From: Lentzea albida
GTDB taxonomy: Bacteria > Actinomycetota > Actinomycetes > Mycobacteriales > Pseudonocardiaceae
Assembly (NCBI RefSeq): GCF_900111005.1
Contig: NZ_FOFV01000013.1
Location: forward strand, 124,001 to 188,000
DNA: 64,000 nt
Direction: 5' to 3'
A program made the position numbers and the translations under genes. Below are positions 49,841 to 52,827 of this stretch, one piece after another; positions within the stretch are counted from its first letter, which is position 1; every line of letters starts with the position of its first letter. The notes below the pieces were generated by a model that was not told where the DNA came from, made no database searches, and saw nothing but the letters and a program-made list of their open reading frames with translations.

Positions 49841-50710
49841 ATGGAGCTTCGGCAGCTGGAGTACTTCGTCGCGGTCGCGGAGGAGGGCTCGTTCACGCGC
49901 GCGGCGGAACGGGTGCACGTCGCCCAGCCCGGGATCAGCGCGCAGATCCGGCGGCTGGAGCGGGAACTCGGGCACGACCTGCTGGACCGCTCGGGACGCA
50001 CCGTCACGCTGACCGGCGTGGGCGCGGCGGTGCTGCCGCTGGCGCGGGCGGCACTGGGGTCGGTGGAGTCGGCCCGGCGGACCGTGGAGGAGATGGCCGG
50101 GCTGGTGCGCGGCTCCGTGCGGGTCGGGATGGTCGTGTCGTGCGGGATCATGGACCTCCCCGAACTGCTGTCGGCGTTCCACACGTCGTTCCCCGACGTC
50201 GAGATCACGTTGTCGGAGGCCAACTCCTCCACGTTGATCGAGTCGCTTGTGGACGGTCGGCTGGACTTCGCACTCGTCGGCTACGCGGGTGCGGAGCCCG
50301 AGGGGGTGGCTGTCCGGGTGCTGGCCGACGAACCGCTCGTGGCCGCGGTGTCGGCCTCGGATCCCTGGTACGGCAGGGAATCCGTGCCGCTGGAGGAGTT
50401 GCTGGAGCGCGGGCTGATCTGCCTGCCGCCGGGCACCGGACTGCGCGGGGCGCTGGACGCGGCCTGCGGTGCGCGCCGGCCGCGGATCGCGTTCGAGGCG
50501 TCCGCGCCCCCGATGGTGATCACGCTGGCGCAGCGCGGGCTCGGGCCGGCGGTCCTGGCGCGGTCGATGGTGGGCGACCTGCACGCCGTTCGGATCACCG
50601 ATCCCGTGCCGCACAGCAGGCTCGCGTTCGCGTGGCGCGCGGAAGGTCCGCACAGCCCGGCCGCGCGGACGCTGATCGGGCTCGCGGAGAACCAGGTGAC
50701 AACGGTCTAG
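49841..50710 (+). CDS. LysR-family transcriptional regulator
   Basis: The 289-residue LysR protein begins MELRQLEYFVAVAEEGSFTRAAERVHVAQPGIS, here spanning residues 1-33, and has the RLERELGHDLL helix and a standard effector domain (about 90-289). It is divergent from the shortened FAD oxidase, the usual target arrangement. A decayed 51-base copy of its own 3' end lies about 730 bases downstream at 51390-51440. Confidence 0.92.
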   Translation: MELRQLEYFVAVAEEGSFTRAAERVHVAQPGISAQIRRLERELGHDLLDRSGRTVTLTGVGAAVLPLARAALGSVESARRTVEEMAGLVRGSVRVGMVVSCGIMDLPELLSAFHTSFPDVEITLSEANSSTLIESLVDGRLDFALVGYAGAEPEGVAVRVLADEPLVAAVSASDPWYGRESVPLEELLERGLICLPPGTGLRGALDAACGARRPRIAFEASAPPMVITLAQRGLGPAVLARSMVGDLHAVRITDPVPHSRLAFAWRAEGPHSPAARTLIGLAENQVTTV

Positions 50711-50726
50711 TCCACGCGGCTTCTGG

Positions 50727-51347
50727 TCAGGCGCTGGTCGTCGGGTTCGCGGTGGCGTTGAAGTCGAGCTTCGTGGCGCTGTCCCGCCAGGCGAAGACGA
50801 TCGGGACGAGCAGGATCAGGTAGAGCGCCGCGGGGACGGCGACCCAGCCGCCGAGGTGGTGCGCCGCTTTGACCAGCATGAGGGCCGTGTAGGCGAGGGG
50901 GATGATGCCCGCCCCGCTGTAAGCGATGAGCATCGCGAGGCGGAGGGGTGTGCCCGCGGTGTGGATGTTGGTGGCGTGTTCGGCGGCGGTCGCGCCGATG
51001 CGGGAGGGGTCGAGGGAGTGGCTCTCGCCGTGGTCGGTCGCGGCGAGGAGAGCGCGTTCGAGGGTGAGGATCGACCGGGCTCGGACGGCCGCGAGGTTGA
51101 GCAGTTGCGCGTGGAAAGCGGCGGTGCACAGCAGCGGGAACGGCAGGAGGCTGATCGCCCAGCCGAGGAGATCGAGTTTGTCGTAGAAGGCGATCGTGCC
51201 GATGAGGTAGGTCGTGGTGACGCCGATCGTCGCGAGACTCACGGTCAGGGTGGTGGCCCGGTCGGCCCGGTCTGCTTGGTAGATGGCGGTGAGCACGGGG
51301 AGTCGGTCCGGAATGGCAGCTGCTCCTGGCTGGTCTGTGCGACTCAC
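50727..51347 (-). CDS. Membrane protein, about four helices
   Basis: The 206-residue product has hydrophobic segments at about 30-50, 60-80, 130-150 and 165-185 flanking a cytoplasmic region (SRIGATAAEHATNIHTAGTPL). No family is recognised. GTG 51347 is preferred over upstream starts, because farther in-frame extension to 51842 crosses the leader region and start of the EF-Tu gene. It is convergent with the LysR gene and has the LysR 3' copy just beyond its start. Confidence 0.6.
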   Translation of the reverse strand: MSRTDQPGAAAIPDRLPVLTAIYQADRADRATTLTVSLATIGVTTTYLIGTIAFYDKLDLLGWAISLLPFPLLCTAAFHAQLLNLAAVRARSILTLERALLAATDHGESHSLDPSRIGATAAEHATNIHTAGTPLRLAMLIAYSGAGIIPLAYTALMLVKAAHHLGGWVAVPAALYLILLVPIVFAWRDSATKLDFNATANPTTSA

Positions 51348-51389
51348 TGTCCCAGGTTTGCCGCGCTCCGGGCAGTGGAAAGGTGTTCG

Positions 51390-51440
51390 TCCGCACGGGC
51401 GTTGACCAGACCGGCGGAAAACCAGGTGACAGCGGTCCAG
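51390..51440 (+). pseudogene. Remnant copy of the LysR gene 3' end
   Basis: 51390-51440 matches the last 51 bases of the LysR gene (50660-50710) at 39 of 51 positions; the reading frame keeps AENQVTAV against AENQVTTV. Nothing more of a LysR gene is present. It looks like the tail of a lost paralogue or a local duplication. Confidence 0.55.
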
Positions 51441-51461
51441 CACGCCTGTCACGATCACCGC

Positions 51462-51554
51462 ATGTTCCTGACGGCTGAGCTCAACACGTGCGCGGGTGTG
51501 CCCGCGGACGCGCTCGCCGTCGCCTCGGCAGCGCTGGCCGGCGCCCGACTCTGA
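51462..51554 (+). CDS. Possible 30-residue leader peptide upstream of EF-Tu
   Basis: This short frame ([20 protein letters not shown]...) has GTGACA-N18-CACGAT-N6-ATG in front, compatible with a leaderless promoter. Its stop lies six bases before a hairpin (51560-51588), which precedes the EF-Tu gene at 51646. The arrangement is that of an attenuator leader. No homology is recognised, so it may be chance. Confidence 0.35.
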
Positions 51555-51559
51555 CCCTT

Positions 51560-51588
51560 CTCCAGTCCATCCTTCAGGACCACTGGAG
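51560..51588 (+). promoter_or_regulatory. Leader hairpin upstream of EF-Tu gene
   Basis: CTCCAGT (51560-51566) and ACTGGAG (51582-51588) are perfect inverted repeats, with CC/GG able to extend the stem inside. It lies 57 bases before the EF-Tu start and six bases after a small open frame. It could act as an attenuator or as an mRNA stabiliser. Confidence 0.45.
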
Positions 51589-51645
51589 GAGGGTTGTGGC
51601 GGTCCATCGGTTCTGAGCCACCGTTTCGCACCGAGGAACAGGAAG

Positions 51646-52827
51646 ATGAAGCAGGAGTTCGTGCGCGCCAAGCCGCACCTCAACATCGGCACGATGGGCC
51701 ACGTCGACCACGGCAAGACCACGCTCACCGCGGCGATCACCAAGGTTCTGTCCGAAAAGGACCCGACGGGCACGACCTTCACGGCGTTCGACCGGATCGA
51801 CCGGGCGCCGGAGGAGCTGGCCCGCGGCATCACGATCAACATCGCGCACGTCGAGTACGAGACGCCGACGCGGCACTACGCGCACGTCGACATGCCCGGC
51901 CACGCCGACTACGTGAAGAACATGATCACGGGGGCGGCGCAGCTCGACGGCGCGATCCTCGTGGTGTCCGCCGAGGACGGCACGATGCCGCAGACGCGGG
52001 AGCACGTGGTGCTGGCGCACCGGGTGGGCGTACCGCACGTGGTGGTGGCGTTGAACAAGGCCGACGCGGTGAGCGACCCGGAGCTGCTCGACCTGGTGGA
52101 GCTGGAGATCCGCGACCTGCTCTCCCGGTACGGCTTCGACGGCGACGCCACGCCGGTCGTGCGGGTGTCCGGCCTGCGCGCGCTGCAGGGCGACCCGCGG
52201 TGGGTGCAGTCGGTGGTGGACCTGCTCGACGCCGTGGACTCCCACGTCCCGGTGCCGGAGCGGGACGTCACCGGGCCGTTCCTGATGCCGATCGAGAACG
52301 TCCTGACCATCACCGGCCGCGGCACGGTCGTGACCGGTGCGGTGGAGCGGGGTGTGCTCGGCCTCGGCGACCAGGTCGAGGTGCTCGGTCTCGGCTCGGC
52401 GGTGACCTCGGTCGCCACCGGCATCGAGACGTTCGGCAAGCCGATGCAGCAGGCGCAGGCGGGGGACAACGCCGCGATCCTGCTGCGCGGCGTGAAGCGC
52501 GGCGACGTCCGGCGCGGCCAGGTGCTGGCGCTGCCGGGCAGCGTCGCGCCGCACACCCGGTTCCGCGCGTCGGTGTACCTGCTCTCGCACGCCGAGGGCG
52601 GCAGGCACACCGGTATCGCGTCGAACTACCGCCCGCAGTTCCACTTCCGCACCGGCGACGTCGTCGGCGTGGTGGAGCTCGACAGGACGCTGGCGCTGCC
52701 AGGGGACACCGTCGAGGTCGTGGTGGAGCTGGGCAAGGCGGTGGCGATGGACACCGGGCTGGGCTTCGCGATCCGCGAGGGCGGCAAGACCGTGGGTGCC
52801 GGCACGGTCGGCGAGATCCTCGCCTAG
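51646..52827 (+). CDS. tuf: Divergent stand-alone elongation factor Tu (predicted elfamycin-type resistant)
   Basis: The 393-residue EF-Tu has all GTPase motifs ([26 protein letters not shown]). It is alone, not beside rpsL/rpsG/fusA, so it is an extra copy. Aligned to E. coli EF-Tu (mature numbering), several otherwise constant positions differ: Q124 is Arg126 here, L120 is Val122, R230 is Ala232, G275 is Ala277. Replacements at Q124 and L120 (kirromycin/enacyloxin), R230 (pulvomycin) and G275 (GE2270A-type) are known resistance sites; G257, G316, A375, R333 and T334 are conserved. I infer an EF-Tu tolerant of elfamycin-class antibiotics. ATG 51646 follows GAGGAACAGGAAG. Leader peptide and hairpin lie upstream. 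Confidence 0.93.

Follow-up and report, generated by a model that had tools for sequence, protein, structure and literature searches.

An EF-Tu3 gene preceded by a leader ORF and a predicted pseudoknot

We analysed 64,000 nucleotides of the actinomycete Lentzea albida (positions 124,001 to 188,000 of contig NZ_FOFV01000013.1, RefSeq assembly GCF_900111005.1; hereafter the window), which carry an extra gene for elongation factor Tu (EF-Tu). By sequence comparison this gene is EF-Tu3 (actEF-Tu, encoded by tuf3), a known actinobacterial paralogue, and upstream of it lie a WblC-type promoter, a short leader open reading frame (ORF) and two interleaved RNA helices (Table 1). The product scores 590 bits against TIGR00485 (cut-off 522). 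The genome (9.44 Mb in 40 contigs) holds one further EF-Tu, the main tuf (C16:375834-377015), which is 62% identical to the extra copy and has an EF-G-like match about 2 kb away. Because the main tuf sits on a different contig, the isolation of the extra copy from the ribosomal operon, noted in a first-pass annotation of this DNA, is real. That annotation also listed replacements at four elfamycin-resistance positions, and alignment with E. coli TufA (locus L118) confirms both the extra gene and all four residues: V122, R126, A232 and A277 correspond to L120, Q124, R230 and G275 (E. coli numbering is used below). Its description of the protein as an intact GTPase is right for the G motifs, which are kept, with the qualification that G5 reads SGL where E. 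coli has SAL.

Table 1. Features of the tuf3 locus (window coordinates).
Feature	Position	Strand	Comment
EF-Tu3 (actEF-Tu) gene	51646..52827	+	complete ORF, 393 aa; L120V, Q124R, R230A, G275A and the clade-wide D216N and R262G
WblC/WhiB7-type box GAAAAC	51417..51422	+	3 nt upstream of the -35-like GTGACA
-35-like GTGACA	51426-51431	+	hexamer chosen by eye
-10-like CACGAT	51450-51455	+	hexamer chosen by eye
Upstream ORF (leader), 30 aa	51462..51554	+	predicted leaderless, no Shine-Dalgarno sequence
Helix A (stem 1)	51552-51566 with 51582-51596 (span 51552..51596)	+	15 bp, begins in the leader stop TGA
Helix B (stem 2)	51573-51581 with 51609-51617 (span 51573..51617)	+	9 bp, interleaved with helix A
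Shine-Dalgarno-like GAGGA of the EF-Tu3 gene	51633..51637	+	read from the sequence
Segment of about 730 nt between lysR and tuf3	50658..51440	+	absent from all 19 genus loci compared
53-nt direct repeat, 77%	50658-50710 and 51388-51440	+	flanks the segment of about 730 nt, carries the promoter

The leader ORF and its promoter

The 5' regions of tuf3 are conserved beyond what the promoter alone explains. The leader frame is open in all 23 genus loci (22 recognized by pattern and the variant L108 by scan). Across the clade, a leader that ends at the helix-A stop is present in 80 of 84 EF-Tu3 loci, L201 having been removed from the 85 before counting as identical to L011, and its second codon is TTC (79) or TTA (1). 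The product usually begins with MF and ends in GAR followed by S, L, R or I. The penultimate codon is CGA in 74 of the 84 loci, GAT in 7, GAG in 2 and ACC in 1; because it is not always CGA, a codon-specific role is uncertain.

In 52 of 80 EF-Tu3 loci a GAAAWY motif stands 44-46 nt before the first codon of the leader, as compared with a mean of 1.6 and a maximum of 6 in 200 mononucleotide shuffles, and a loose -10 pattern fits 64 of the 80 in a count made without a shuffled control. The window has its box, 3-nt gap and GTGACA at the distance common to other EF-Tu3 loci. The definition of the WblC box and the activation of S. coelicolor tuf3 by WblC are given in PMC7157823, and EF-Tu3 expression here may likewise be WblC activated and stress induced. 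A Shine-Dalgarno-like pentamer precedes tuf3 in 76 of 80 loci and the leader in just 3 of 80. Because of this rarity, and because the box and -10 pattern stand at a fixed distance, the upstream ORF is predicted to be leaderless. A frameshift fusion of the leader to tuf3 was considered and rejected: within the genus the length of the open frame around tuf3 varies between 397 and 452 codons.

Two interleaved helices with the geometry of an H-type pseudoknot

The two helices of the window have the geometry of an H-type pseudoknot with loops of 6, 0 and 12 nt, and positions 51552-51598 fold at -26.6 kcal/mol (z -3.67). In the 77 rows kept after removal of seven with another automatic pick for helix B, the medians are 13 and 9 bp for the stems (ranges 9-15 and 6-12), 10, 2 and 9 nt for the loops, and 31 nt for the distance between the end of helix B and the tuf3 ATG.

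We assessed covariation in an alignment of 33 of the 84 loci that was built without reference to structure (35 were picked, after which L119 and L121 were omitted and L095 was shortened; g38, g56, the L142 group, L111 and L128 lie outside it). Helix A is paired in 98.3% of cells, with changes on both sides in 3 of 11 pairs and 4 pairs invariant, and helix B has changes on both sides in 10 of 11 pairs. Covariation of the whole structure reaches 0.289; shuffled alignments give 0.166, with none of 500 reaching the observed value, and sliding the structure along the alignment gives no more than 0.187. When each locus is compared with its own shuffles, the best interleaved helix has p<0.05 in 55 of 84 loci, and the medians of 13 clades combine to p=5e-9. 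Letters are also conserved besides the pairing. The element thus comprises two covarying, interleaved helices whose loops would allow them to coexist, and both may form in one molecule.

The third loop measures 45-57 nt in genera g56 and g38 (L119-L121 and L195-L200), and inspection by eye showed an extra hairpin with a TGACCCTCAC-like arm after helix B in g38.

The element was found at EF-Tu3 genes and at no other gene

A covariance model built on helix A and its flanks has a single match in the L. albida genome at E<=5 (150 of 13,495 first-look candidates scored). In the class, 35 of 296 genomes matched, once each, at E<=0.01; this search used stricter filters with 15 candidates scored per genome, and weak copies elsewhere could have been missed. 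An EF-Tu gene or its remnant lies just downstream of the element in all 35 matched loci. All 28 other class EF-Tu3 genomes numbered up to G585 were matched by the model, and the 12 numbered above G585 were probably outside the 296 searched. Six of the 35 genomes had not been listed by the earlier class-wide search for the EF-Tu3 protein. The 15 loci held out of model building all score E<=5.1e-7, and 43 main-tuf and other control loci, most of which have only about 100 nt of upstream sequence, gave no match at E<=10. In G407 (L266, G407:C1:495400-498600) the element is kept and the EF-Tu match that follows is 44% identical over 216 residues; this is possibly a decaying EF-Tu3 locus.

Rfam families searched with relaxed filters against positions 51200-51800 gave two matches, both far below the gathering score, and at the gathering score none fell on the element in eight loci, with one group II intron elsewhere in L010. 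We found no published description of a tuf3 leader element in the literature searched, which did not extend to subscription papers, a 2007 paper on EF-Tu3 among them. In the one paper found to mention tuf3 together with an upstream ORF (uORF), that uORF belongs to wblC (PMC7157823). With a covarying leader element that our searches located solely at EF-Tu3, control beyond the promoter becomes testable.

EF-Tu3 is a vertically transmitted paralogue

Streptomyces EF-Tu3 was described by 1995 at the latest as a dispensable EF-Tu that is expressed under stress, with resistance reported later. The window gene belongs to the same clade. All 71 EF-Tu3 rows in our tree (71 of 85, with 14 EF-Tu3-like rows from the genus omitted; a quick search with the root not fixed) are separated from housekeeping EF-Tu by a single branch (100 in the Shimodaira-Hasegawa-like approximate likelihood ratio test, SH-aLRT). 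Named copies from Streptomyces (S. dysideae and S. pseudovenezuelae), Actinophytocola, Actinoplanes and Nocardia fall on the EF-Tu3 side; the tree excludes the S. coelicolor and S. ramocissimus sequences. Like Streptomyces EF-Tu3, the window protein is a divergent second EF-Tu with D216N and with R230 and G275 replaced, and its gene has the WblC-type promoter box and the same leader element.

An orthologue with 92-97% identity is present in 22 of 23 sampled genomes of the genus. The sole congener without one at the threshold used is G023. In G011 the search at E<=1e-100 showed EF-Tu3 alone, and the missing main tuf may reflect an assembly gap. With the L. albida genome counted, 46 of the 297 family genomes, in 7 of 46 genera, have EF-Tu3 at E<=1e-170, and 41 of the 394 class genomes, in 8 of 138 genera, have it at E<=1e-169, a cut-off so strict that some Streptomyces-like members fall below it. 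A second EF-Tu accompanies it in all 40 EF-Tu3 genomes outside the genus and in 21 of the 22 congener carriers. The genes on both sides of tuf3 are common to the window and all 19 genus loci compared, with local losses, and the single compared locus of another genus has no flanking gene in common with the window. Judged by these sequence data, EF-Tu3 is vertically inherited, and recent acquisition is not supported, given the 22 carriers among 23 congeners and the shared flanks.

The ratio of nonsynonymous to synonymous substitution rates (dN/dS) in the genus is 0.14 for EF-Tu3 (23 genomes) and 0.12 for the main tuf (9 genomes), and on this sequence measure EF-Tu3 is shown to be under purifying selection. 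Its codon usage is less biased than that of the main tuf, which suggests that it is expressed at a lower level.

Resistance-type residues in EF-Tu3 and in the main EF-Tu

The first-pass annotation argued that changes at four resistance positions in one gene are hard to explain by drift. These positions map to kirromycin, pulvomycin and GE2270A resistance, and we compared them within a list of 13 known resistance positions. Over the whole protein, 160 of 393 residues (41%) differ between the extra copy and E. coli; among the 13 resistance positions, 4 do (31%). Within near-invariant housekeeping columns, changes fall at 2 of 8 resistance positions and at 13 of 149 others (Fisher p=0.17). There is thus no enrichment of changes at resistance positions, and at 41% divergence the argument against drift fails. 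GE2270A contact residues include D216, G257, R262, V274 and G275 (PMC8183687), and fixed EF-Tu3 differences occur at 1 of 12 such contacts, without significant excess (p=0.14 or 0.06 depending on threshold).

G275A does not distinguish the extra copy either. The main EF-Tu of the genus has S257, A274 and A275 in all 9 genomes examined (L. albida itself, L002, and L156-L163), whereas G275 is kept in 29 of 31 other actinobacterial and in 73 of 73 wider housekeeping copies. Going by these residues, the ordinary EF-Tu of the genus may itself be GE2270A tolerant. The same S257/A274/A275 signature, of GE2270A-resistance type, occurs in the main EF-Tu of G026 from the same family, and G039 has it without A274. 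Such cases call for caution, since a genus can have replacements of the resistance type, G275A and G257S for instance, fixed in its housekeeping EF-Tu. The extra copy is set apart from the main EF-Tu of the genus only by Q124R, R230A and L120V, so that the finding that the first-pass annotation had itself named as fatal, a housekeeping tuf with the same residues, applies to just one of the four.

Q124 and R230 are constant in all 113 tabulated housekeeping rows (9, 31 and 73). Among 85 EF-Tu3-like proteins (L059 and L076, with odd translations, were dropped before alignment), A275, N216 and G262 are present in all, and R230 is replaced in all (A in 77, V in 6, K in 2). Q124 is replaced in 59 and Y160 in 31; 81 lack at least one of these two residues, and the remaining four carry V120. 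Q124 and L120 are retained in the 19 Streptomyces-like rows, 16 of which have H160, whereas all 23 rows of the window genus carry R124, V120 and Y160. These two groups may have reached kirromycin tolerance by different residues, a weak idea because Y160 also varies in housekeeping EF-Tu (17 of 119 rows).

Resistance and stress expression are reported for Streptomyces EF-Tu3 only. S. coelicolor EF-Tu3 is reported to be kirromycin resistant (PMC6804068), Streptomyces actEF-Tu or EF-Tu3 is described as stress expressed and resistant (PMC4342817), and S. coelicolor EF-Tu3 is called GE2270A resistant but less active, with one of three tuf3 overexpression constructs raising GE2270A resistance at least fourfold at a cost to growth (PMC12309360). 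A resistant second EF-Tu copy is said not to rescue kirromycin-treated cells because kirromycin sensitivity is dominant (PMC6685928). Because the window gene falls in the clade with these Streptomyces members, a resistance-type EF-Tu is plausible, as the first-pass annotation had it, and orthology and residues together suggest that the window protein would be drug resistant; the further claims of self-protection and acquisition found no support.

Self-protection of a producer is opposed by the absence from the L. albida genome of any PF14028 (thiopeptide/lanthipeptide dehydratase C-terminal) or PfaD-family match, two markers that cannot cover every elfamycin cluster. As a positive control for PF14028, a first control set gave no match and family genomes were then searched, in which the domain is present in 63 of 120, including three congeners.

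Separately, the main EF-Tu has T375 in all four genomes of genus g49 examined (L220, L223, L224 and L227) and S375 in G047 (L165), at a position tied to kirromycin/enacyloxin resistance.

A model for ribosome-coupled control of EF-Tu3

We propose that EF-Tu3 is a vertically inherited, probably conditional paralogue whose leader ORF and pseudoknot give ribosome-coupled control, and that the protein keeps its GTPase motifs while having altered drug pockets; we assign this joint explanation a probability of roughly 0.7. Translation stress would raise EF-Tu3 transcription via WblC, and ribosomes reading the final codons of the leader would run into the pseudoknot or unfold it. As stem 1 must open for a ribosome to reach the stop codon, ribosome position and folding of the knot would be physically coupled. 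At its downstream end the knot borders the tuf3 initiation site, and its folded or open state would set EF-Tu3 output; we infer a switch of this kind. Control is probably exerted at EF-Tu3 translation rather than at transcription termination, because no intrinsic terminator was found. The EF-Tu3 made would then sustain some elongation whenever the main EF-Tu runs short or is poisoned. In the repY/repZ system of IncI plasmids, a leader ORF and a pseudoknot likewise lie upstream of the regulated start codon. The likeness is one of layout, and the tuf3 leader differs in that its stop sits inside stem 1.

Several observations weigh against this explanation. Further pair types in the RNA alignment do not exceed those of shuffles (76 of 500), and helix B is paired in only 70.1% of cells, partly because 13 or 14 of the 33 rows are one or two columns out of register (Streptomyces-like rows, g133, Nocardia and two Actinoplanes-group rows). 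The best interleaved helix is non-significant in 29 of 84 loci, and 5 of the 55 significant rows chose another pairing (L093, L095, L096, L098 and L128). ViennaRNA, which cannot score knots, forms helix A and not helix B in the window, and it prefers another fold for L012 (z -0.31). Three of the six genomes added by the covariance model lack an MF leader start. Constraint on the leader peptide is weak, with dN/dS at 0.94 in the genus and at 0.77, 0.63 and 0.50 in three other groups, values that also make a functional leader peptide a weak candidate. With regard to the protein, two of the three tuf3 overexpression constructs conferred no resistance (PMC12309360), and the biochemically tested EF-Tu3 sequences lie outside our comparison.

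The leader could alternatively be a transcription attenuator of the wblC/ABC-F type, in which a ribosome on the uORF switches between antiterminator and terminator helices. Like the wblC/whiB7 and ABC-F attenuators, for which there are Streptomyces precedents in PMC7157823 and PMC12421871, the tuf3 leader places a conserved short ORF (80 of 84 loci) directly before two helices and upstream of a translation-stress gene, from where it could well sense ribosome behaviour. T is also somewhat more frequent in the 10 nt that follow helix B than in upstream regions overall (0.22 versus 0.15). However, the ORF is apparently leaderless, unlike those of the known attenuators, and its interleaved helices share hardly any strand, unlike their competing hairpins: the gap between the first strand of helix B and the second of helix A has a median of 2 nt (range -2 to 7), and with so little overlap the two are not necessarily mutually exclusive. 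In 73 of 77 rows the 10 nt that follow helix B contain no run of more than two T residues, and no terminator-like site was found at positions 51300-52000, nor a clear U tract after helix B. With T runs this short and strands hardly shared, we rejected an intrinsic terminator with a competing antiterminator, and we consider attenuation in general rather unlikely.

A narrower version of the ribosome-coupled model, which we regard as speculative and on balance improbable, would make the leader a dedicated sensor of EF-Tu function. The leaderless ORF, with its mostly CGA penultimate codon read as the ribosome meets the pseudoknot, would slow when aminoacyl-tRNA delivery by the main EF-Tu falters, the knot would refold and the drug-tolerant EF-Tu would be switched on. 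If true, the substitute for a translation factor would be controlled by how well that factor works.

The view of the first-pass annotation, a dedicated elfamycin-resistance EF-Tu that is self-protecting or acquired, draws on Q124R and R230A at otherwise constant positions and on the resistance reported for Streptomyces EF-Tu3. The presence of the gene throughout the genus with common flanks, the two cluster markers missing from the genome, the lack of excess at resistance positions and the sharing of G275A with the main tuf make it doubtful. Least probable is autoregulation in which EF-Tu3, a ribosomal protein or another factor binds the pseudoknot and the ORF is secondary. This would suit the conserved letters, the one copy per genome only at EF-Tu3 and the weak peptide constraint; against it, the ORF start, the lack of a Shine-Dalgarno sequence, the promoter distance and the in-frame stop within helix A are conserved across most clades.

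Neighbouring genes and other features

The scanned neighbours of tuf3 encode STAS, FAD-binding, LysR, DUF6766, LLM oxidoreductase, TPP enzyme and phosphoesterase proteins and one protein without a match; an adjoining elfamycin cluster was rejected, as none appeared among these families. Carriage of the gene on a plasmid was also discarded, the two best PLSDB matches being on replicons of 2.8 and 11.9 Mb.

The direct repeat that bounds the segment of about 730 nt upstream of tuf3 is a duplication of the tuf3 promoter. GAAAAC occurs only in the tuf3-proximal copy, and the other copy reads GAGAAC.

Finally, L213 (G073:C1:518500-523500) is a third EF-Tu that has diverged strongly (identity about 50%); it lies within an open frame of 655 codons and carries R120, H124, N160, S257, H333 and V375.
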